Source: Opitutaceae bacterium (lineage in GTDB: Bacteria; Verrucomicrobiota; Verrucomicrobiia; Opitutales; Opitutaceae). Taken from it: 64,000 nucleotides of DNA. How positions within the stretch are numbered: position 1 is the first letter of the stretch; every line of letters begins with the position of its first letter. Both the position numbers and the translations under genes were made by a program. The notes beneath the pieces were generated by a model. The model saw nothing but the letters and a program-made list of their open reading frames with translations. It did not search any database and was not told the DNA's origin. Where the stretch lies: positions 1 to 64,000 of the forward strand of contig JAEUGW010000049.1 of the NCBI GenBank assembly GCA_016795565.1. Direction: 5' to 3'. Positions 3,362 to 62,343 of the stretch are shown piece by piece.

Positions 3362-3438
3362 TCTGAGCGAAGCGAAGAATCCAGAATGATGTCCGCCACG
3401 GTTATCCTGCTGGATCCTTCGCTGCGCTCAGGATGACA
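3356..3438. repeat. Palindromic repeat of the TCATTCTGAGCG type
   Basis: Imperfect inverted arms, TGTCATTCTGAGCGAAGCGA at the left and its approximate complement ending GCTCAGGATGACA at the right, with CCAG/CTGG inner borders. A related copy is at 56107-56227. This motif is widespread in bacterial genomes, where its translation gives the familiar [18 protein letters not shown] peptides. It fills the serS-tilS gap and its left arm contains the tilS start codon. Confidence 0.8.
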
Positions 3439-3451
3439 GGTTTCGTGCGCC

Positions 3452-11541: not shown

Positions 11542-13344
<1,803 letters not shown>

Positions 13345-20166: not shown

Positions 20167-20513
20167 GGGGACTTGGTTTCGCGGTCGATCTCGCCGAGCA
20201 GGGTCTCGATCCGCAGCGTGCGCGGCGCATGGTTGTCATGCACAAAGGCCAGCAGCGGCACGTGGCGGATGATGACGTTTTTCGCCAGCATCTCGCGGAT
20301 CTCGTCGCGGTGCTTGACCAGCCATTTGCCGGCCGCGGCGGCCTCGGCCGGAGCACCCAGCACCGTGTAAAAGATCTTGGCCTCGCGCAGGTCACCGGTG
20401 ATTTCGACGCCGGTGATGGTGATGCCCACGGTCTCGGCGCCGTGCTTCCTGCGGAGGTGCGCGCTGATCTCGCGCTGCATCAGCTCGTTGACGCGGAGGA
20501 GGCGGTTGCTCAT
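20163..20513 (-). CDS. rbfA: Ribosome-binding factor A
   Basis: 116-aa KH-like protein needed for late 30S maturation and 16S rRNA processing, and for cold adaptation. It begins MSNRLLRVNELMQREISAHL and contains the ITGVEITGDLREAKIFYTVLG core of the family. The stop overlaps the nrnA start; a repeat-filled gap of 106 bp separates it from infB upstream. Confidence 0.93.
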   Translation of the reverse strand: MSNRLLRVNELMQREISAHLRRKHGAETVGITITGVEITGDLREAKIFYTVLGAPAEAAAAGKWLVKHRDEIREMLAKNVIIRHVPLLAFVHDNHAPRTLRIETLLGEIDRETKSP

Positions 20514-20516
20514 CGG

Positions 20517-20621
20517 AATTACGATTTCAGATTTACGATTTACGATTGGTCACAGAGAACCGCTGCCGCGCTTCGTGATGGCTTGGTTAAATCGTAATTC
20601 GTAAATCGAAAATCGTAAATC
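20517..20621. repeat. AT-rich inverted repeat (TTTACGATT type) between infB and rbfA
   Basis: Left part repeats TTTACGATT units (20517-20547) and the right part holds their complements AATCGTAAATC (20590-20621), forming an imperfect long hairpin inside the operon. It is AT-rich in an otherwise GC-rich neighbourhood. A similar AATC/AAAATC-type repeat lies at 63131-63162. Could form a stem-loop in the infB-rbfA mRNA. Confidence 0.7.
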
Positions 20622-23037
20622 AGAGCGAAGCTCTGACCTTCTGGACCTCGAAGCACTCGATCTTGTCGCCCGGCTGATAGCCGTCGTAGCCGTCGAGGCG
20701 GATGCCGCACTCCAGGCCGGCGCGCACCTCGTTGGCATCATCCTTGAAGCGGCGCAGCGTGCCGATCTTGCCCTCGAAGACGGACTCCTTGCCGCGGCGG
20801 ACGCGCGCGGTGATGCCGCGGTTGATCTTGCCCTCGGTGACCAGACAGCCGGCGACGAAGCCCTTGGCGACCGGGAAGACCTGGCGCACCTCGGCGCCGC
20901 CGAGCTTGTTTTCCTTGAGGTCGGGATCCAGCAGGTCGGCCATCAGCTCCTTCACGCGGTCGCCGAGCTCGTAGATGATCTCGAAGGACTCGATGGTCAC
21001 GCCGTGGTGCTTGGCCAGGGCCGTGACGCCGTTCTCCTGCTTGGTGTTGAAACCGATGATGACGGCCTTGCCCGTGCTGGCCATGAGGACGTCGTTCTTG
21101 CTGATCACGCCGACATCCGCCGCGACGATGTCGAGCGAGACCTTGGTGCTCTTGATGCCCTCGAGCACATTCTTGACGGCCTCGAGCGAGCCAAACACGT
21201 CGGACTTGAGCACGACACGCAGGGTCTTGGCCTGGGTGGCGGCAATGTTGGCGAAGAGGGCGTCGAGCGAGACATCCTTGGGCGCCGCATCATCGGTCGC
21301 GGTGGTCTTCTTGAGCAGGTCTTCCGCCTCCTCGGCGAGGCGCTCGGCCTCGCGGGCGTTCTTGGCCGTGACAAACTTGGCGCCCGAATCGGGCGAGCCC
21401 GACCAGCCGATGACGCGCACGGGCATCGCCGGGGGCGCTTCCTTGAGCGCCTTGCCCTGGTCGTCGAACATGGCGCGGACCTTGGCGTAGTGCGGGCCGC
21501 ACACGAGGGCATCGCCCACGCGGAGGGTGCCGCGCTGCACGATGACGGTGGCGAGCGGGCCGCGGCCGACGTCCACCTGCGACTCGATGACCACGCCGCT
21601 GGCCTCGGCCTTCGGGTTGGCCTTCAGTTCCAGCACGTCGGCCTGGAGGAGAATCATGTCGAGCAGCTCGGGAATGCCCTGCTTCTTGATGGCTGCCACC
21701 GGCACGGTGACGGTCTCACCGCCCCAATCCTCGGGCGCGATCTGGCGCTCCTGCATCTGCTGCTTCACGCGGTCGAGGTTCGCGCCCTTCACGTCCATCT
21801 TGTTGACGGCCACCATAAGGGCGACCTTGGCCTCCTTGGCGTGCTGCAGGGCCTCGTCGGTCTGCGGCATGAACCCGTCGTCCGCCGCGACCACGAGGAC
21901 CGCGATGTCGGTGACGGAGGCGCCGCGCGCGCGCATCTTGGTGAAGGCGGCGTGGCCCGGGGTGTCGAGGAAGGTGATTTTGCGGCCGGCGTGCTCGATC
22001 TGGTAGGCGCCGATGTGCTGCGTGATGCCGCCGGCCTCGCCGGCCGCGACGTTGGCCTGGCGGATGGCGTCGAGCAGGGAGGTCTTGCCATGGTCCACGT
22101 GGCCGAGGATGCAGACCACGGGCGGACGGGGCGCGAGGTTCTTGATGTCCTCCTCGCGCGCCTTCTCCTCCTTGTTGATCTTGGCCTTTTCCGGGGTGAG
22201 GGCCGGCGCGGCCGTTTCGCCGCGGTGCTTGATGTCGAGCAGGAAGCCGTGCTTCTCGCCGACCTTGGTCGCGACGGCTTCGTCGATGGACTGGTTCATC
22301 GACGCGAAGATGCTCATCTCCATCAGCTCGGAGATCAGCTTGAAGGGCTTGAGACCCAGCGCCACGGCGAACTCGCGGACGATGATCGGCGGCTTGAGGT
22401 GGATGATCTTCACGCCACCCTCCTCGGTCACGGTGACATTGCTCGTGGTCGCCGCCGCAGGCATCAGCGGAGCCAGGGGCGCGGGCTTGGCCACCGGCGG
22501 CGGGGCCACCGGGGCCTTGGCGGGCGGCGGAACCGCGGGGGCTGGCCGGGCAACCGGGGCGTTGAAAGTCGGGACCGGCCGGATCGGCGGCGGCATGGCC
22601 GGCCCGGGGCGCGGAGCCATCATCGGCGCCGGGGGCGGCGCCTTCATCAGCGGCGACGGCGGCGGCTTGGGGGCGACCACCGGGGCCGGCGGCAGCGCGG
22701 CGGCGCGGGCGGCGGCGCGCGCCGCTTCGGCGGCCTTGGCGGCTTCCTCCTTCTCGCGCGCGATGTCGGCCGCGGATTTCACGAAGACGCCGGCGGGCAG
22801 CTTCACCTGCGGCGGCTCCGCCGCAACCTGCGCCGGGGTCGGCACGGCGGCCGGGGCCACGGGAACCTCGACCGGCTTGGCGTATTTCTTGGCGATCTCG
22901 TCGTAGTAGATCTTGCTGACGGTGCTCGAGACCGACTTCGTATCCGCCGCCACAAAGCCCTGCTCCTTGAGCCAGGAAAGCATTTCCTTGGGCTCAACGT
23001 TGTATTGCTTGGCGATCTCGTGGATGCGGGAACTCAT
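20620..23037 (-). CDS. infB: Translation initiation factor IF-2
   Basis: GTPase that places initiator tRNA on the ribosome. The 805-aa protein has an N-terminal IF2_N helical domain, a long Pro/Ala-rich linker (about residues 50-195), a second IF2_N domain ([17 protein letters not shown]), then the G domain with [22 protein letters not shown] and NKMD, followed by domains II, III and the C2 tRNA-binding domain. It lies 36 bp after nusA. Confidence 0.97.
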
Positions 23038-55890: not shown

Positions 55891-56262
55891 AGGTGGAACC
55901 TGTCCTCCGGACAGGTTTTCAACACGCGCGCAAACTTACCCGGTCGCCTTCGTCCCAAGGAACCGCGCATGAAACCAACCTCCTTTTCGCGCGTTTTGGC
56001 AACCCGGCCGGAGTGTTTGGGCCCGGTTCCACCTTTCGCGATTGAGCCGAGTGCCAGCATCGACTGTGCTAGGATGTGTTTTCAAACCCACCAAACATCC
56101 ATTTCCTGTCATTCTGAGCGCAGCGAAGAATCCAGTAGCACCATCGCTTCCGCTGCGGTGCGACGTAAATCCTGATGGATGTAACACCAGCCCTGCTGGG
56201 CTAGACTTCACTTCGTTCAGAATGACAAAGCGGGTTTGAAACACTCCCTGATGCATTCCCCA
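55891..56262. other. Intergenic region holding a palindromic repeat
   Basis: 372 bp between nagZ and the amidase gene. It contains the repeat at 56107-56227. The rest shows no gene; a promoter for the amidase would be expected near 56230. Confidence 0.45.
56107..56227. repeat. Palindromic repeat of the TCATTCTGAGCG type, longer copy
   Basis: Left border TGTCATTCTGAGCGCAGCGA and right border CTTCGTTCAGAATGACA, as in the copy at 3356-3438, but enclosing about 80 extra bases with a second small palindrome CCAGC-CCTG-CTGG. It lies upstream of the amidase gene. Confidence 0.75.
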
Positions 56263-57303
56263 ATGAAACTTCTTCTTCCCCTCCTGCTCGCCGGCATCCT
56301 CCTGCTCGGCGGTTGCGTCCAGCCCCGCACCTTTGCCCCGCGCCAGGGCGACGAGATCATCGTCGCCGGCCAGCTCTTCCACACCGGCACCAAGGTCGTG
56401 ACCTGGATGGACCCGGGCGGCTACGACGCCTACCGGACGGAACGGCGGTTCGCCCCCTTTGAGCAGAGCAGCTGGGCGAAGACCCACGAGGCGAAGCCCG
56501 AGCTCAAGGATCCGGCCCGCTACGGCCTGCGCTCCCAGCAGCTGACCCCGGCGGAAATCGAGCGCGTGCGCGGCGGCGGCTGGGACCTGCCGACCCTCCA
56601 GCGCGTCGTTGACCAGTTCGTGCTGCACTACGACGTGTGCGGCATCGCCAAGCAGTGCTTCAACATCCTCCACGACCACCGCGGCCTCAGCGTCCACTTC
56701 ATGCTCGATCTCGACGGCACCATTTACCAGACGCTCGACCTCAAGGAGCGCGCCTACCACGCCACGACGTCGAACCACCGCTCCGTCGGCATCGAGATCG
56801 CCAACATGGGCGCCTACGGCCCCGGCGACACCCAGGTGCTCAACACGTGGTATCCGCGCGACGAACAGGGCCGGGCCTACATCAAGGTGCCGGACAAGCT
56901 CGGCGACGCGCTGATCCACACCCAGAACTTCACCGGCCGCCCCGCCCGGCCCGAGCCCGTGCGCGGCCACGTGCAGGGCCAGGATCTCGTGCAATACGAC
57001 CTCACCCCGCAGCAATACGCCGCCCTCATCAAGCTCACCGCCGCCCTCGCCACGGTCTTCCCCCGCATCACGCCCGACTACCCGCGCGACGCCGCCGGGC
57101 GCCTCCTCACGGTCAAGCTGCCCGACGACCAACTGGCCGCCTATCACGGCGTGCTCGGCCACTATCACATCCAGACGAACAAGACCGATCCCGGCCCGGC
57201 GCTGCAATGGGACAAGGTGATCGACGGTGCCCGCCGCCTGCTGCGCCTGCCACGCATCAAGCGGCCGCCGGCCACCACCGCACCGGTGCCAGCGCCAAAC
57301 TGA
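56263..57303 (+). CDS. Lipoprotein N-acetylmuramoyl-L-alanine amidase (amidase_2)
   Basis: 346-aa lipoprotein (signal LLAGILLLGGC) with an amidase_2/PGRP fold: FVLHYDVCGIAKQCFNIL gives the first zinc His, SVHFMLDLDGTIYQTLDL and ERAYHATTSNHRSVGIEIAN supply the second His and conserved core. It cleaves the bond between muramic acid and L-Ala, probably in the periplasm on anhydro-muropeptides. ATG 56263 starts the lipoprotein signal; TTG 56236 would add a few residues. Confidence 0.88.
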   Translation: MKLLLPLLLAGILLLGGCVQPRTFAPRQGDEIIVAGQLFHTGTKVVTWMDPGGYDAYRTERRFAPFEQSSWAKTHEAKPELKDPARYGLRSQQLTPAEIERVRGGGWDLPTLQRVVDQFVLHYDVCGIAKQCFNILHDHRGLSVHFMLDLDGTIYQTLDLKERAYHATTSNHRSVGIEIANMGAYGPGDTQVLNTWYPRDEQGRAYIKVPDKLGDALIHTQNFTGRPARPEPVRGHVQGQDLVQYDLTPQQYAALIKLTAALATVFPRITPDYPRDAAGRLLTVKLPDDQLAAYHGVLGHYHIQTNKTDPGPALQWDKVIDGARRLLRLPRIKRPPATTAPVPAPN

Positions 57304-57312
57304 GCGCGAGGC

Positions 57313-58893
57313 TCAGTTTGCCTTTGCCCGTTTCAGGGTGTGCGTGACCCGCGGGCTCTCGTTGCCCAACCGGTCCACGGCACTGACCACCACGGCGTCG
57401 GCGCCGGCGACGTTGATGCTGGTTTCGCCCGCCGGCTGGAGGGCGAAGCGCCACTCGGCGCCACGGCGCAGCCAGATGGCAAAGTGGAAGGCGGCCCCGC
57501 CCTCGCCGGGCACGATCACGACCCGATCACCCGGCGCGGCCTGCAACTTGGGGGCAGGCGGCGGCGACACCTTGATCCACGGCGTCGCGGGCACCAGCGC
57601 GGGCGTGGCATTGGGCCCGGCCTGCAACTGCGTGCTGATGCCGCGCCGGTCCTGCTGCAGCGCGATCATGCTGTAATGGATGTGCCCCGTGGCCGCCGGC
57701 GCGGCCCGCACGAGGTCGATCTGGGCGAGGATTTCCCCGACCGACCATGACTTCGGCGTGTCGTTGATGGAACTCGTGAACAAGCCCGGCCACACGTGGC
57801 GCTGCGCGGTGTTCTGCTTCTGCCAGTAATCGAGCAACACGCCGAACTCCTGCCCCTTCCGGTCGCGGGGCCAGTAGAGCTGCGGCGCCAGGTAATCGAG
57901 CCAGCCCTTCTCCAGCCACAGTTCCACGTCGGCGTAGAGCTTGTCGTATTGGCTGAAGCCCGTGATGCCCGGCGGGCGGCGATCCGGCCGGCCCAGCCCA
58001 AACGGGCTCACGCCGAACAACACCGACGGCTTGACCTTGTGAATCGCGCGATAGAGCCGCTCAACCAACTGGTCCACGTTCTGCCGCCGCCATTCGTCGC
58101 GCGGAAGCCGGCCGCCGCCGTCGCGATAGATTTTCCAGGACGGCCCGTCCGGGAAATCCACCGTCGCGGCCGCCTCGCCCGGCGCGGGCTTCGGCGCCTT
58201 CGGGTCCACGATCGGATACGGGTAGAAATAGTCGTCGATGTGGACGCCATCCACATCGTAGCGCCGCACCACATCGGCCACGACCTCGACCGTGCGCTGG
58301 CTGGCAAAGGCGTCGCCCGGATCCATCCACCAATAGTCGCCGTATTGTTTCACCGCAGCCGGGTGGGTCTTTGCGATGTGCGTCGGGGCGAAGCCTGATT
58401 TCGCCTGGTTGTGCCGGGCCCGGTAGGGGTTGAACCACGCGTGCAGTTGCAGGCCGCGCTTGTGCGCCTCCTCGACCCAGAACTTGAGCGGATCGTAACC
58501 CGGATCACCGCCCTGCTGCCCCGTCAGGTATTCCGTCCAGGGCTCGAAGGGCGACGGGTAGAGCGCGTCGGCGGCGGGCCGCACCTGCAGGATGACGACG
58601 TTGAGGTTGAGCGTCCGCGCGCGGTCCAGCATGGCAATCGCTTCCGCCCGCTGCTGCGCGGCGGGCAGGCCGGGAGCGCTGGGCCAGTCGATGTTGGCCA
58701 CGGTGGCCACCCAAACCCCGCGAAACTCGCGCGGCGCGGGCGGCGGATTCTCCACGACCTTTGGCGTCGTGCTGCAACCGGCGAGAAGCGCGATCGACAG
58801 CAGGGCCAAAATGGTAGGGCGAGTCGTCCCCGACGAGCCTCCCCAACCGCTGCGGCTCATCCGGAGGATTCGCCCTACCTTAAACGCGTTCAT
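57313..58893 (-). CDS. GHL10-type glycoside hydrolase lipoprotein
   Basis: 526-aa lipoprotein of the family-10-like glycosyl hydrolase group (GHL10/DUF187, YngK-like), a TIM barrel with FRGVWVATVANIDWPS, LQVRPAADALYPS, LHAWFNPYRA and DVDGVHIDDYFYPYP, and a C-terminal beta domain. Probably acts on cell-wall or exopolysaccharide; substrate unknown. ATG 58893 overlaps the murQ stop (ATGA), which fixes the start. The codons between MNAFK and ILALLSIALLAGC derive from a palindromic repeat (58813-58879), so the signal peptide has an odd, extended N-region. Confidence 0.87.
   Translation of the reverse strand: MNAFKVGRILRMSRSGWGGSSGTTRPTILALLSIALLAGCSTTPKVVENPPPAPREFRGVWVATVANIDWPSAPGLPAAQQRAEAIAMLDRARTLNLNVVILQVRPAADALYPSPFEPWTEYLTGQQGGDPGYDPLKFWVEEAHKRGLQLHAWFNPYRARHNQAKSGFAPTHIAKTHPAAVKQYGDYWWMDPGDAFASQRTVEVVADVVRRYDVDGVHIDDYFYPYPIVDPKAPKPAPGEAAATVDFPDGPSWKIYRDGGGRLPRDEWRRQNVDQLVERLYRAIHKVKPSVLFGVSPFGLGRPDRRPPGITGFSQYDKLYADVELWLEKGWLDYLAPQLYWPRDRKGQEFGVLLDYWQKQNTAQRHVWPGLFTSSINDTPKSWSVGEILAQIDLVRAAPAATGHIHYSMIALQQDRRGISTQLQAGPNATPALVPATPWIKVSPPPAPKLQAAPGDRVVIVPGEGGAAFHFAIWLRRGAEWRFALQPAGETSINVAGADAVVVSAVDRLGNESPRVTHTLKRAKAN
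58813..58879. repeat. Palindromic repeat inside the GHL10 signal-peptide region
   Basis: GGTAGGGCGAGTCG... at the left and ...GATTCGCCCTACC at the right, with inner CGACGAGCC/GGCTC pairing. On the minus strand it is translated in frame as a basic segment starting VGRILRMSRSGWGG, directly ahead of the lipoprotein hydrophobic core. Confidence 0.8.
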
Positions 58894-59780
58894 TTTTTCC
58901 CCTCCCCGATGGCCCGGCGCACGCTGCCGCCGGCGGCGGCGAGCGCCGCCCGCGCCCCGGCGGCATCGGTCCCGCGCCGGATTGCCACAATCGCCAGCTT
59001 CACACTGTGGCCGCAGGCCTCGAGTATGCGGCGGGCTGTGGCTTCGTCCGCCTGGGTGGCGAGCACGGTGAGGGCCACCGCGCGGCGGTGGAGCTTTGCG
59101 TTGGTGGGCATGAGGTCCACCATCAGGTTGCCGTGCACCTTGTGCAGGCGGACCATGATCGCGCTGGAAAGCGTGTTGAGCACGATCTTCTGCGCCGTGC
59201 CGGCCTTCAGGCGGGTGCTGCCGGAGATCACCTCGCTGCCGGTGTCGAGCGTGAGGCCGATCTCCGCCTGCGCGGCGATCGGCGACCCAGGATTGTTGGC
59301 GATGCCGATGGTCAGCGCCCCGGCACGCCGGGCCGCCGCGATGGCCCCGAGCGCATAGGGTGTCGAGCCCGAGGCCGCCAGCGCGATGCACACATCGTTG
59401 GCCGTCGGCGCGAGCGCGCGCAGATCCGCCTCGCCCTGGGGCAAGTCATCCTCCGCTCCTTCGACAGCCTCATACATGGCGCCCTGGCCACCGGCAATCA
59501 GCGCCAGCGCGCGCTCCTTGGGCCAGCTGAAGGTCGGAAACAGCTCGACGCTGTCGAGCACGCCGAGGCGCCCCGAGGTGCCGGCCCCCGCGTAGATCAG
59601 CCGGCCGCCGGCCGCGATGCGCGGGGCGGCGGCGTCAACCGCGCGGGCAATCTGGTCGGCGGCGGCGTGCACGACGCCGGCAGCGAGCACCTGATCCTCG
59701 GTGAAGGCCCGCACGAGTTCGGGCGTGGCGTATTGGTCGAGATCCGGATGGCGACCACTGGGGGTTTCAGTCTTGAGCAT
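58890..59780 (-). CDS. murQ: N-acetylmuramic acid 6-phosphate etherase
   Basis: Converts MurNAc-6-P to GlcNAc-6-P and lactate in peptidoglycan recycling. The 296-aa SIS-domain protein has YAGAGTSGRLGVLDSVELFP, GGQGAMYEAVEGAEDD and STRLKAGTAQKIVLN, all specific to MurQ. It acts after AnmK, whose gene lies divergently just upstream (59870). Confidence 0.96.
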   Translation of the reverse strand: MLKTETPSGRHPDLDQYATPELVRAFTEDQVLAAGVVHAAADQIARAVDAAAPRIAAGGRLIYAGAGTSGRLGVLDSVELFPTFSWPKERALALIAGGQGAMYEAVEGAEDDLPQGEADLRALAPTANDVCIALAASGSTPYALGAIAAARRAGALTIGIANNPGSPIAAQAEIGLTLDTGSEVISGSTRLKAGTAQKIVLNTLSSAIMVRLHKVHGNLMVDLMPTNAKLHRRAVALTVLATQADEATARRILEACGHSVKLAIVAIRRGTDAAGARAALAAAGGSVRRAIGEGKK

Positions 59781-59869: not shown

Positions 59870-60982
59870 ATGCCTGACCTGTTCATCGGCACCCTCTCCG
59901 GCACGAGTGTGGACGGCATTGACGCCGCGTTGGTGCGCTTCTCGCCGCAGCCCGCCCTCGTCGCGTCGCACTCCATGAAGTTCCCTGCGGATTTGCGGCA
60001 GGAACTGCTGGCGCTCGGCGTGCCGGGGGCCAACGAGATCGACCGGCTCGGGTCGGCTGATGTCCGTCTGGGGCGACTGTTTGGCCAGGCGGTCAACCAG
60101 CTGCTCCAACAGGCCGGGGTGAACCCGGGCGACATCGCCGCCATCGGCAGCCACGGGCAGACCATCCGCCACCGGCCGGGCGGTGCGGCTCCCTTCACCC
60201 AGCAAATCGGCGACCCCAACATCATAGCCGCGACCACCGGCATCCCGGTGGTCGCCGACTTCCGCCGCAAGGATCTGGCGCTCGGCGGCCAGGGTGCCCC
60301 GCTGGTCCCCGCGTTTCACGAGGCGGTTTTCCGCGTGCCCGGCAAGGATCGCGTGATCGTGAACATCGGCGGCATCGCGAACCTGACGGTGCTGCCCGGC
60401 GACGCCGCCCGGCCGATCCTTGGGTTTGACACCGGGCCGGGCAACACTCTGCTCGACGGCTGGAGCCGCCGCTGCCTCAACGCGCCCATGGATCGCGACG
60501 GTGCCTTTGCCGCGAGCGGCACGCCGCACGCCGGCCTGTTGGCCGCCCTGCTGGGCGACGGCTATTTTCACCAACCGCCGCCCAAGAGCACCGGCCCGGA
60601 ATATTTCACCGCCGCATGGCTGCAGCGGCATCTCGCCGCAGTCGGCGACCTCGCCCCTGCCGACGTGCAGGCCACCCTGCTCGCGCTCACGGCCCGGAGC
60701 ATCGCCGACGCCATCAAGGCCCTGCCTGATCTGGCGCGACCCGATGTCTTCGTGTGCGGCGGCGGCGCGCACAACGGCGCCCTGATGCGGGCCCTGCGCG
60801 GCAACCTGCCCGGCGCAACCGTGGCTCCGACCGACACCCTCGGGGTGGCCGGAGACTGGGTGGAGGCCATGGCCTTTGCCTGGCTCGCGCGGCAGCGCCT
60901 GCAGGCGCAGCCCGGCAACTGCCCGCGCGTCACCGGGGCCAGCCGGCCCGCCGTGCTGGGCGGCCTGTGGCTGCCAGAGTAA
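59870..60982 (+). CDS. anmK: Anhydro-N-acetylmuramic acid kinase
   Basis: 370-aa kinase that opens and phosphorylates anhMurNAc to MurNAc-6-P, the MurQ substrate. Motifs: IGTLSGTSVDGIDAALVRF at the N-terminus, SHGQTIRH, VNIGGIANLTVLP and the GFDTGPGNTLLD phosphate-binding segment, plus VCGGGAHNGALM. ATG 59870 is used; in-frame upstream codons lie in the murQ promoter region. Divergent with murQ across about 90 bp. Confidence 0.96.
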   Translation: MPDLFIGTLSGTSVDGIDAALVRFSPQPALVASHSMKFPADLRQELLALGVPGANEIDRLGSADVRLGRLFGQAVNQLLQQAGVNPGDIAAIGSHGQTIRHRPGGAAPFTQQIGDPNIIAATTGIPVVADFRRKDLALGGQGAPLVPAFHEAVFRVPGKDRVIVNIGGIANLTVLPGDAARPILGFDTGPGNTLLDGWSRRCLNAPMDRDGAFAASGTPHAGLLAALLGDGYFHQPPPKSTGPEYFTAAWLQRHLAAVGDLAPADVQATLLALTARSIADAIKALPDLARPDVFVCGGGAHNGALMRALRGNLPGATVAPTDTLGVAGDWVEAMAFAWLARQRLQAQPGNCPRVTGASRPAVLGGLWLPE

Positions 60983-61020: not shown

Positions 61021-61094
61021 TGTAGGGGCGCGCCTTGTGCGCGCCCGAGAGACTGCGTTACCCGTGTCGGGCGTGGACAAGCCGCGCCCCTACA
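61021..61094. repeat. Palindromic repeat with TGTAG/CTACA borders
   Basis: TGTAGGGGCGCG at the left and CGCGCCCCTACA at the right, with further inner pairing (GCGCCCGAGA against TCGGGCGT). It fills the gap between anmK and the convergent M20 peptidase gene. Confidence 0.8.
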
Positions 61095-61122: not shown

Positions 61123-62343
61123 TCACCGCGCGTTTGCGGGCAGCTTGATTTCCCCCGCCGCGAGGCGGTGCAGGAAGAGCGCGACATTCTGCGCGCGCGG
61201 CGCGATTGTCGCCACCCGGCAGTATTCGCGGGCGCTGTGCAGGAAGTCGCCCTCGGGGCCGATGCCATCAAAGCACGGCAGGCCCGCCGCGCCGAGGAAG
61301 TTGCCGTCCGAGGCACCGCCGCCGTGGACCCAGGTGAAGGGCTTGAGGCCGACGTCCTGCGCGGCGCGCTGAAACTCCGGGAACAGCGCCGCCTCGGTCG
61401 GGTGATTCTCCTTCGGCGGCCGGTTCAACCCGCCCGTGATCTCGATCTTCACGTCGTGCGTGGCCGCCGTCTCGCGGGCCACCGCTTCCAGCCGGGCCAT
61501 GAGCGGCTCATGATCGGCCAGGCGCGTGACGCGCAGATCAATCTCGGACTGGGCGAAGTCCGGCACGACGTTCGTCGCGGCCGTGCCGCCGCGAATGTTG
61601 CCGGCGTTGACCATGACGCCGGGCAGCTCCGCCGGAATCTTCGCGATGGCCAGGAGATACGCCGCGAGCCCGAGGATGGCGTTGCGGCCGTCGTTCGGAA
61701 TCTTGGCGGCATGCGCAGCCCGGCCGTGGCAGGTGGCGGTGATGCCGCCCGTGCCCTTGCGCGAGTGGATGATGTCGCCGCTGGGCCGGGCGGGCTCAAA
61801 GACAAAACCAAAGTCGTGGCGCCCGGCCGCCTCCTCAAACATCGCCCGCGTGCCGTGCGAGCCGGTCTCCTCGTCGGGCGTGAGCAACACCTCCCAGCCG
61901 AGATGAGCGGCGTGCGGCGTTTTTTCTAAGGCCTCGAGCGCGGCCAGCATCACAATCAGCCCGCCCTTCATGTCCGTCACGCCCGGGCCGTTGAGCGTGC
62001 CGGCGTCGAGCCAGCGGCAGGATTGGAAGGCGTCGTCCGCGGCGTAAACGGTGTCGTAGTGCCCGCAGAGGAAAACCTGCCGCGCCGCCTGCGGCCGCAT
62101 CCGGAAGCGCAGCGCCTTCGCGCCCGGCGGGTTGAGGCCCGGGGCATCGGCGGACAGTTCCTCAAACGTGGCCGCCGGAAAGGCCGCGCCAAACCCGGCG
62201 CGCAGCTCAGCCGCCATGCGCGCCAGGCCGGCGCCGTGGCTGGAGCCGGAATTGATGTTGGCCCAGCGCTCAAGCAACGCGCCGAGTTCGGCGGCGCGCG
62301 CGGACAGGGCGCTGATGGCAGGGGGAACGGTGGCTGAGGACAT
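61123..62343 (-). CDS. M20-family metallopeptidase
   Basis: 406-aa dizinc exopeptidase like carboxypeptidase G2/ArgE/DapE. Metal sites: FLCGHYDTVYA (first His and Asp), GVTDMKGG (bridging Asp), LTPDEETGSHG (catalytic Glu), and a late His in DFLHSAREY. A middle dimerisation domain contains AAHAAKIPNDGRNAI. No signal peptide. The place beside recycling genes suggests it may trim murein peptides, but other substrates are equally possible. Confidence 0.88.
   Translation of the reverse strand: MSSATVPPAISALSARAAELGALLERWANINSGSSHGAGLARMAAELRAGFGAAFPAATFEELSADAPGLNPPGAKALRFRMRPQAARQVFLCGHYDTVYAADDAFQSCRWLDAGTLNGPGVTDMKGGLIVMLAALEALEKTPHAAHLGWEVLLTPDEETGSHGTRAMFEEAAGRHDFGFVFEPARPSGDIIHSRKGTGGITATCHGRAAHAAKIPNDGRNAILGLAAYLLAIAKIPAELPGVMVNAGNIRGGTAATNVVPDFAQSEIDLRVTRLADHEPLMARLEAVARETAATHDVKIEITGGLNRPPKENHPTEAALFPEFQRAAQDVGLKPFTWVHGGGASDGNFLGAAGLPCFDGIGPEGDFLHSAREYCRVATIAPRAQNVALFLHRLAAGEIKLPANAR

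Follow-up and report, generated by a model that had tools for sequence, protein, structure and literature searches.

How a palindromic repeat comes to lie inside the signal peptide of a predicted lipoprotein is the question raised by this locus. In the window (i.e. the whole 64,000-nucleotide stretch of Opitutaceae DNA analysed here), the minus-strand gene at 57313-58893 (stop codon at 57313-57315) encodes a 526-aa GHL10 protein, as indicated by its orthologues and by a profile match to PF02638 over residues 56-378 (E=5.9e-66; 223 bits vs a curated cut-off of 27.9). Its reading frame runs through a 67-nt palindrome close to the start codon. Very probably, a mobile REP dimer was captured in frame in the signal peptide of this lipoprotein and was tolerated there because the signal would be cleaved off.

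The palindrome, GGTAGGGCGA...TCGCCCTACC, is read on the minus strand from 58879 to 58813. It is preceded by MNAFK, covers the last base of K5 and the codons of V6-T27 (22 residues), and the reading frame leaves it into ILALLSIALLAGC. On this strand, the region of the start reads ...GGGGAGGGGAAAAA ATG AAC GCG TTT AAG GTA GGG CGA ATC CTC CGG ATG AGC ... ACG ACT CGC CCT ACC ATT TTG GCC. The first-pass annotation, which had described a palindrome of about 67 nt entered five codons after the ATG and contributing 22 residues, was thereby correct in its coordinates, lengths and frame.

Two units in opposite orientation compose the palindrome: unit A on the minus strand (58854-58879, GGTAG and the imperfect hairpin GGCgaATCCtccGGATgaGCC) and unit B on the plus strand (58813-58839, GGTAG and the imperfect hairpin GGCgaGTCGtcccCGACgaGCC), with a spacer of 14 nt. 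When folded as single-stranded DNA, both halves displayed an unpaired GGTAG foot followed by a hairpin with a 2x2 internal loop (a 3+4 bp stem in unit A), the pairings being GGC-ga-ATCC-tcc-GGAT-ga-GCC and GGC-ga-GTCG-tccc-CGAC-ga-GCC. The single-stranded fold of the 76-nt stretch reached -20.4 kcal/mol (z = -4.0), a value equalled by none of 200 shuffles. The ungapped inverted-repeat score was unremarkable (11 vs a shuffle maximum of 17); such scores are too weak when taken alone in GC-rich DNA, and family membership was used as the criterion instead. A chance palindrome was rejected on that basis, the segment being a member of an interspersed repeat family, called f1 below. Taken with its inverted repeat and fold, the 67-nt segment is a GTAG-type REP dimer, or REPIN.

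Family f1 counted 10 matches in the window's own genome (G000; other G numbers designate further genomes, and L numbers sampled stretches), 44 in G017 and 43 in G015, with E values as low as 1e-22 in other genomes, and was present in 12 of 21 congeneric genomes. Dimers of f1 bordered a Y1_Tnp (RAYT-type) gene on either side in G017 (L270) and in G067 (L264). Two other palindrome families introduced below also flanked such genes, f2 in G003 (L244, both sides) and f5 in G067 (L252). Of the five Y1_Tnp genes in the own genome, none was flanked by f1, so that the element may have lost its mobility in this genome. The f2 copies at L244 are very close to a Pseudomonas REP core and G003 is a Verrucomicrobia MAG; horizontal transfer of the RAYT-REP pair is a possible explanation for this occurrence. 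Other close relatives belong to Opitutae.

The position of the translation start decides whether the repeat is coding. Immediately upstream lies murQ (58890-59780, minus strand), an open reading frame for N-acetylmuramic acid 6-phosphate etherase with SIS-domain matches to PF22645 and PF01380, whose C-terminal motif GGSVRRAIGEGKK, directly before the stop codon, was kept beside the lipoprotein orthologues. The lipoprotein ATG (58893-58891) overlaps the murQ stop codon in an ATGA (58890-58893), and this offset (-4) was identical in palindrome-bearing and empty-site orthologues. A Shine-Dalgarno-like sequence, GGGGAGGGG, occupies positions 58899-58907, in a layout shared by G007, G017 and G014. 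The overlap claimed by the first-pass annotation was thus borne out by the sequence and by its recurrence in orthologues, and from this overlap, the Shine-Dalgarno sequence and the comparison we infer that translation starts at ATG 58893.

The repeat itself might alternatively supply the start, through an in-frame ATG at 58858-58860 that would yield MSRSGWGGSSGTTRPTILALLSIALLAGC and leave the upstream ATG unused. An equivalent in-frame ATG occurs in the G000, G007 and G017 copies, and the resulting signal (29 residues, net +2) would be more usual than one of 40 residues. Yet the upstream context of ATG 58860 (AGGGCGAATCCTCCGG-ATG) is poor and its Shine-Dalgarno context weak, as opposed to the well-spaced GGGGAGGGG and the conserved ATGA overlap of ATG 58893, and orthologues carrying other palindrome families (G225, G067 and G070) use the same murQ overlap. 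A start inside the repeat is therefore considered unlikely, and it would still leave repeat-coded residues as the N-region. ATG 58893 was preferred.

Orthologues devoid of the repeat provided a before-and-after comparison. G014, G066 and G068 shared the ATGA overlap with murQ, their signals measuring 20-23 aa (MSGRSRWYFAAATASVLLLAGC, MSILSRIFGWGAFATLILLLAGC and MMPCFHRLLAAVAVLFIAGC, respectively). Since these three share the overlap and have signals without the repeat, the overlap start appears to be ancestral and the repeat to be an insert downstream of it. Comparing the N-termini of homologues, as the first-pass annotation had proposed, also showed that the segment does not belong to the conserved protein sequence, empty-site orthologues having short signals; a conserved ancestral protein segment was rejected for this reason.

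A further reading holds that the repeat is extragenic, that translation begins after it and that the long N-terminus is a misannotation. It would agree with the survey of Di Nocera et al. (2013; PMC3733652), which, in its passages on these elements, warns that many N-terminal REPs may well be extragenic, and with our codon model, which preferred TTG 58809 and scored the repeat codons badly. However, the window's repeat is followed by a single possible start, TTG 58809, which would produce M-ALLSIALLAGC, a hydrophobic 12-mer with an uncharged N-region; a start beyond the repeat, which the first-pass annotation had itself named as the outcome that would speak against its reading, would need this codon. 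The G003 orthologue, moreover, has no ATG, GTG or TTG between repeat and lipobox. Finally, palindrome bearers G000, G007, G017, G225, G228, G067 and G070 have all preserved the frame that links the murQ-coupled start with the lipobox. Every palindrome bearer for which the end of murQ was identified has an in-frame start, at this end or close to it, from which the lipobox is reached, the signals being 40-60 aa long; G232 is poorly anchored, its lipobox lying about 100 aa from the sole nearby start. An extragenic repeat with a downstream start was rejected and is regarded as highly improbable.

When read from ATG 58893, the gene displays a predicted lipoprotein signal peptide of 40 residues ending in LLAGC. 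Its hydrophobic region and lipobox, ILALLSIALLAGC, are encoded at 58774-58812 (minus strand), with the cysteine expected to be lipidated at C40 (58774-58776), an arrangement also found in orthologues. The sequence combines a net charge of +5, the hydrophobic stretch ILALLSIALLAG and an LAGC lipobox with its cysteine, and joining the flanks without the repeat gives MNAFK-ILALLSIALLAGC, an ordinary short lipoprotein signal. The whole signal carries +5 with the repeat vs +1 to +2 in empty-site orthologues. Two statements of the first-pass annotation, that the repeat enlarges the positive N-region and that a normal lipoprotein signal resumes after it, are in line with these results. The signal peptide presumably works in the cell.

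The following scenario is proposed. The f1 element would be a non-autonomous mobile element made of two inverted, GTAG-tagged imperfect hairpins, of a type linked to RAYT (Y1) transposases, by which it was presumably moved. It would have inserted a few codons past the start of the GHL10 gene, where only a frame-preserving, stop-free insertion could survive. Ribosomes coupled from murQ would start at the overlap ATG and translate through the element, and the signal N-region would gain 22 mostly hydrophilic residues and positive charge, hydrophobic region and lipobox remaining unchanged. Processing by Lgt and LspA is established for lipoproteins with such a lipobox. Here, both enzymes would be expected to lipidate C40 and to remove everything before it, leaving the repeat-coded peptide absent from the mature protein. 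This expected disposal by LspA may explain why repeats are tolerated at this place but not in the mature domain, and why several unrelated families were captured at this very position in related species.

That several families are involved emerged from the 34 orthologues with an anchorable N-terminus. Palindromes occurred at the same place in 10 of them and belonged to six families, each multi-copy in its host genome. Besides f1 (G000, G007 and G017, the G007 copy being extended by a further 30 nt in frame), these were f2 in G003 (GTGGGAGCGAGCTTGCTCGCGA), f3 in G228, G227 and G225 (GGTAGCGTCGGGACCTCCGGGCCCGACG), f4 in G232 (GGTGGCAGGGGCGTCCCGCCC), f5 in G067 (GTAGCGCCGGTTTTTGACCGGCG) and f6 in G070 (GGTGGCCCGCGACCTCCGGGCGCGGG). 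A candidate seventh palindrome, in G064, was doubtful and left out of the count. Inserts f2 to f6 were each searched singly and were all multi-copy in the carrier genomes, indicating mobile families rather than local sequence drift. The protein tree required at least 8 state changes. Its three f3 bearers did not form one clade (p-AU 9e-50), and G225 and G232, although close sisters, carried different families. A clade uniting the f1 and f2 bearers (G000, G007, G003 and G017) was not rejected (p-AU 0.38). The G000 and G017 copies, as well as that of G007 minus its extra 30 nt, measure 67 nt, a length encountered in only 2 of 47 full f1 copies. Because of this shared rare length and of the unrejected clade, one old f1 insertion is favoured as the origin of the G000 and G017 copies; separate insertions in the two genomes are possible. 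In the aligned mature part (about 470 residues), the sole repeat-like insert was DEPRSANGSAGTPRPTGKKSR, at the C-terminal extreme of the G067 protein, which reads like f1. As judged from these comparisons, mobile hairpins seem to be tolerated in the signal peptide, which would serve them as a landing site.

Selection for a hairpin would also yield several unrelated hairpins at one place. The element could accordingly have been kept as a regulatory structure near the start codon, adjusting how much lipoprotein is translated compared with murQ or affecting mRNA stability, its coding capacity being incidental. REPs frequently separate neighbouring genes within an operon, and proposals that they have regulatory roles are mentioned in the GTAG REP survey (PMC3733652). 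Yet about 24 of the 34 orthologues lacked a palindrome there, the RNA fold of the start region was not unusual (z = -0.8), and the G007 copy lost the complementarity of its arms (GGTGGGGCGA/TCACCCTGCC) while gaining 30 nt in frame, as if frame outweighed hairpin. Considering that most orthologues do without a hairpin and that the G007 copy gave up arm pairing and kept the frame, a regulatory role is possible but not needed, and we give little credit to the view that it accounts for the retention of the repeat.

Insertion of f1 into coding frames was not confined to this gene. Among 96 sampled copies from five genomes, 29 (about 30%) were inside called genes and in frame, an estimate that relied on a simple home-made codon model for gene calls and on the better-scoring copies, sampled by stretches; the remainder comprised 3 copies in the present lipoprotein, 9 uncertain N-terminal ones and 55 intergenic ones. 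The codon model was seeded with the window's known genes and replaced an earlier one derived from the longest ORFs, which was ambiguous between strands. Host genes included those for NadE, UvrA, TatD, MnmA, an HrpA-like helicase (three copies), an FMN-dependent dehydrogenase and a WD40 protein (two copies). Homologues of known structure of NadE, TatD, MnmA and UvrA are uninterrupted and contain no insert. The f1 sequence is free of stops in four of its six frames; an open frame alone is therefore weak evidence of translation, and coding insertions are easy. All three helicase copies lie in frame in one G017 gene (L174:7095-11264), and a gene of G007 (L317) that shares its C-terminus with this helicase also contains f1.

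A second recurrent landing site was observed in NadE. Among its orthologues, f1 occupied the interdomain linker in G000 and G017 only, and in G015 (L236) the same linker harboured an unrelated palindrome, GGAGGCGGGACTATCAGTCCCGC...GCGGGACTACTAGTCCCGCCTCC. Recurrence is therefore not unique to the signal peptide. In G067, units of f5 immediately precede the hydrophobic stretch of three additional apparent signal peptides (L109, L128 and L278), whose starts are less well anchored than that of the GHL10 gene. In view of these three cases, signal-peptide N-regions might tentatively be seen as a general sink for in-frame REP dimers, i.e. mobile hairpins that rebuild the N-regions of exported proteins, an extension that we hold to be rather doubtful at present.

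Other repeats were recorded in the window. The called ORF 11542-13344 contains, in frame, a GTAG REP dimer at 12455-12525 (CTGTAGCGGCGGTCTATGACCGCCG and its inverse) that separates two ABC-ATPase halves, with two Walker A motifs (GESGSGKS). This dimer is probably the first palindrome inside a protein noticed by the first-pass annotation. A second copy of this family (78-152) is intergenic, just outside the minus-strand gene 193-2205. At 61021-61094, the palindrome TGTAGGGGCGCGCCTTGTGCGCGCCC... separates the convergent ends of an anmK-like gene (59870-60982) and a peptidase-like gene (61123-62343). Inverted repeats built on TGTCATTCTGAGCGCAGCGAAGAATCC (56105-56227 and 3407-3440) represent a further family; one pair precedes the amidase-like gene at 56263, and a single arm is located near 3407. 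Between two minus-strand genes stands an inverted repeat (20513-20624) that is AT-rich, unlike the GC-rich REPs, and contains short tandem units (ATTTACGATT). Given the families at 78-152 and 12455-12525, at 61021-61094 and elsewhere, f1 was rightly called a third family of palindrome within the window.

Intragenic GTAG REPs are already known, Opitutus terrae included: in the relevant passages of the 2013 survey (PMC3733652), this species had the most intragenic copies among those examined, both uvrA genes being affected. According to the same passages, inverted GTAG REP dimers encode 20-30 residues, insertions inside ORFs include uvrA and helicases, and different REPs occupy about the same recB site in two Xanthomonas species. 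The survey's passages on GTAG REPs make no mention of signal peptides, and none of the literature searched was found to describe REP dimers in such peptides. As far as we found, the novel aspects are an N-terminal case with an anchored start and empty-site relatives, and the capture, time and again, of palindromes from six families in a single cleaved segment. Where treated in that survey, the translation of N-terminal REPs was left open (PMC3733652), and the murQ ATGA overlap offers a case in which the start is anchored. That unrelated families were captured more than once in one and the same cleaved segment points to a simple rule, testable across genomes: within proteins, mobile hairpins would last at sites whose product is disposed of or belongs to a flexible linker.

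Like REPINs (Bertels and Rainey 2011, PMC3116915), f1 consists of two inverted REPs and a spacer forming a long hairpin, and is associated with RAYTs. The f2 core, GTGGGAGCGAGCTTGC, differs at two positions from the group I 16-mer of SBW25, GTGGGAGGGGGCTTGC (PMC3116915). Whereas only 14 of the approximately 1,067 most abundant 16-mers of SBW25 overlap genes (PMC3116915), about 30% of the sampled f1 copies were intragenic. The extragenic position contained in the classical REP name does not apply to the window copy, which sits in a coding frame; since the survey accepts intragenic members among GTAG REPs where it discusses them (PMC3733652), this position does not exclude REP membership. Rickettsia palindromic elements (RPE) also form in-frame palindromes in proteins, and f1 shares this insertion into protein genes; N-terminally RPE-tagged proteins are described as expressed in the part of the survey that covers them (PMC3733652). 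RPE-4 and RPE-6, as presented there, bear a CGTC tag and apparently have no dedicated transposase, in contrast to f1, which bears GTAG instead of CGTC and has RAYT-flanking copies. In the way it works f1 resembles an RPE, but it falls outside that group. A close likeness exists with the GTAG REPs of Opitutus terrae as depicted in that survey (PMC3733652), which combine a GTAG foot with an imperfect hairpin, inverted dimers and intragenic copies, in the phylum Verrucomicrobia. Unlike the N-terminal REPs considered there, most of which are possibly extragenic (PMC3733652), the present case has a start anchored by the overlapping murQ and a site at which unrelated families recur.
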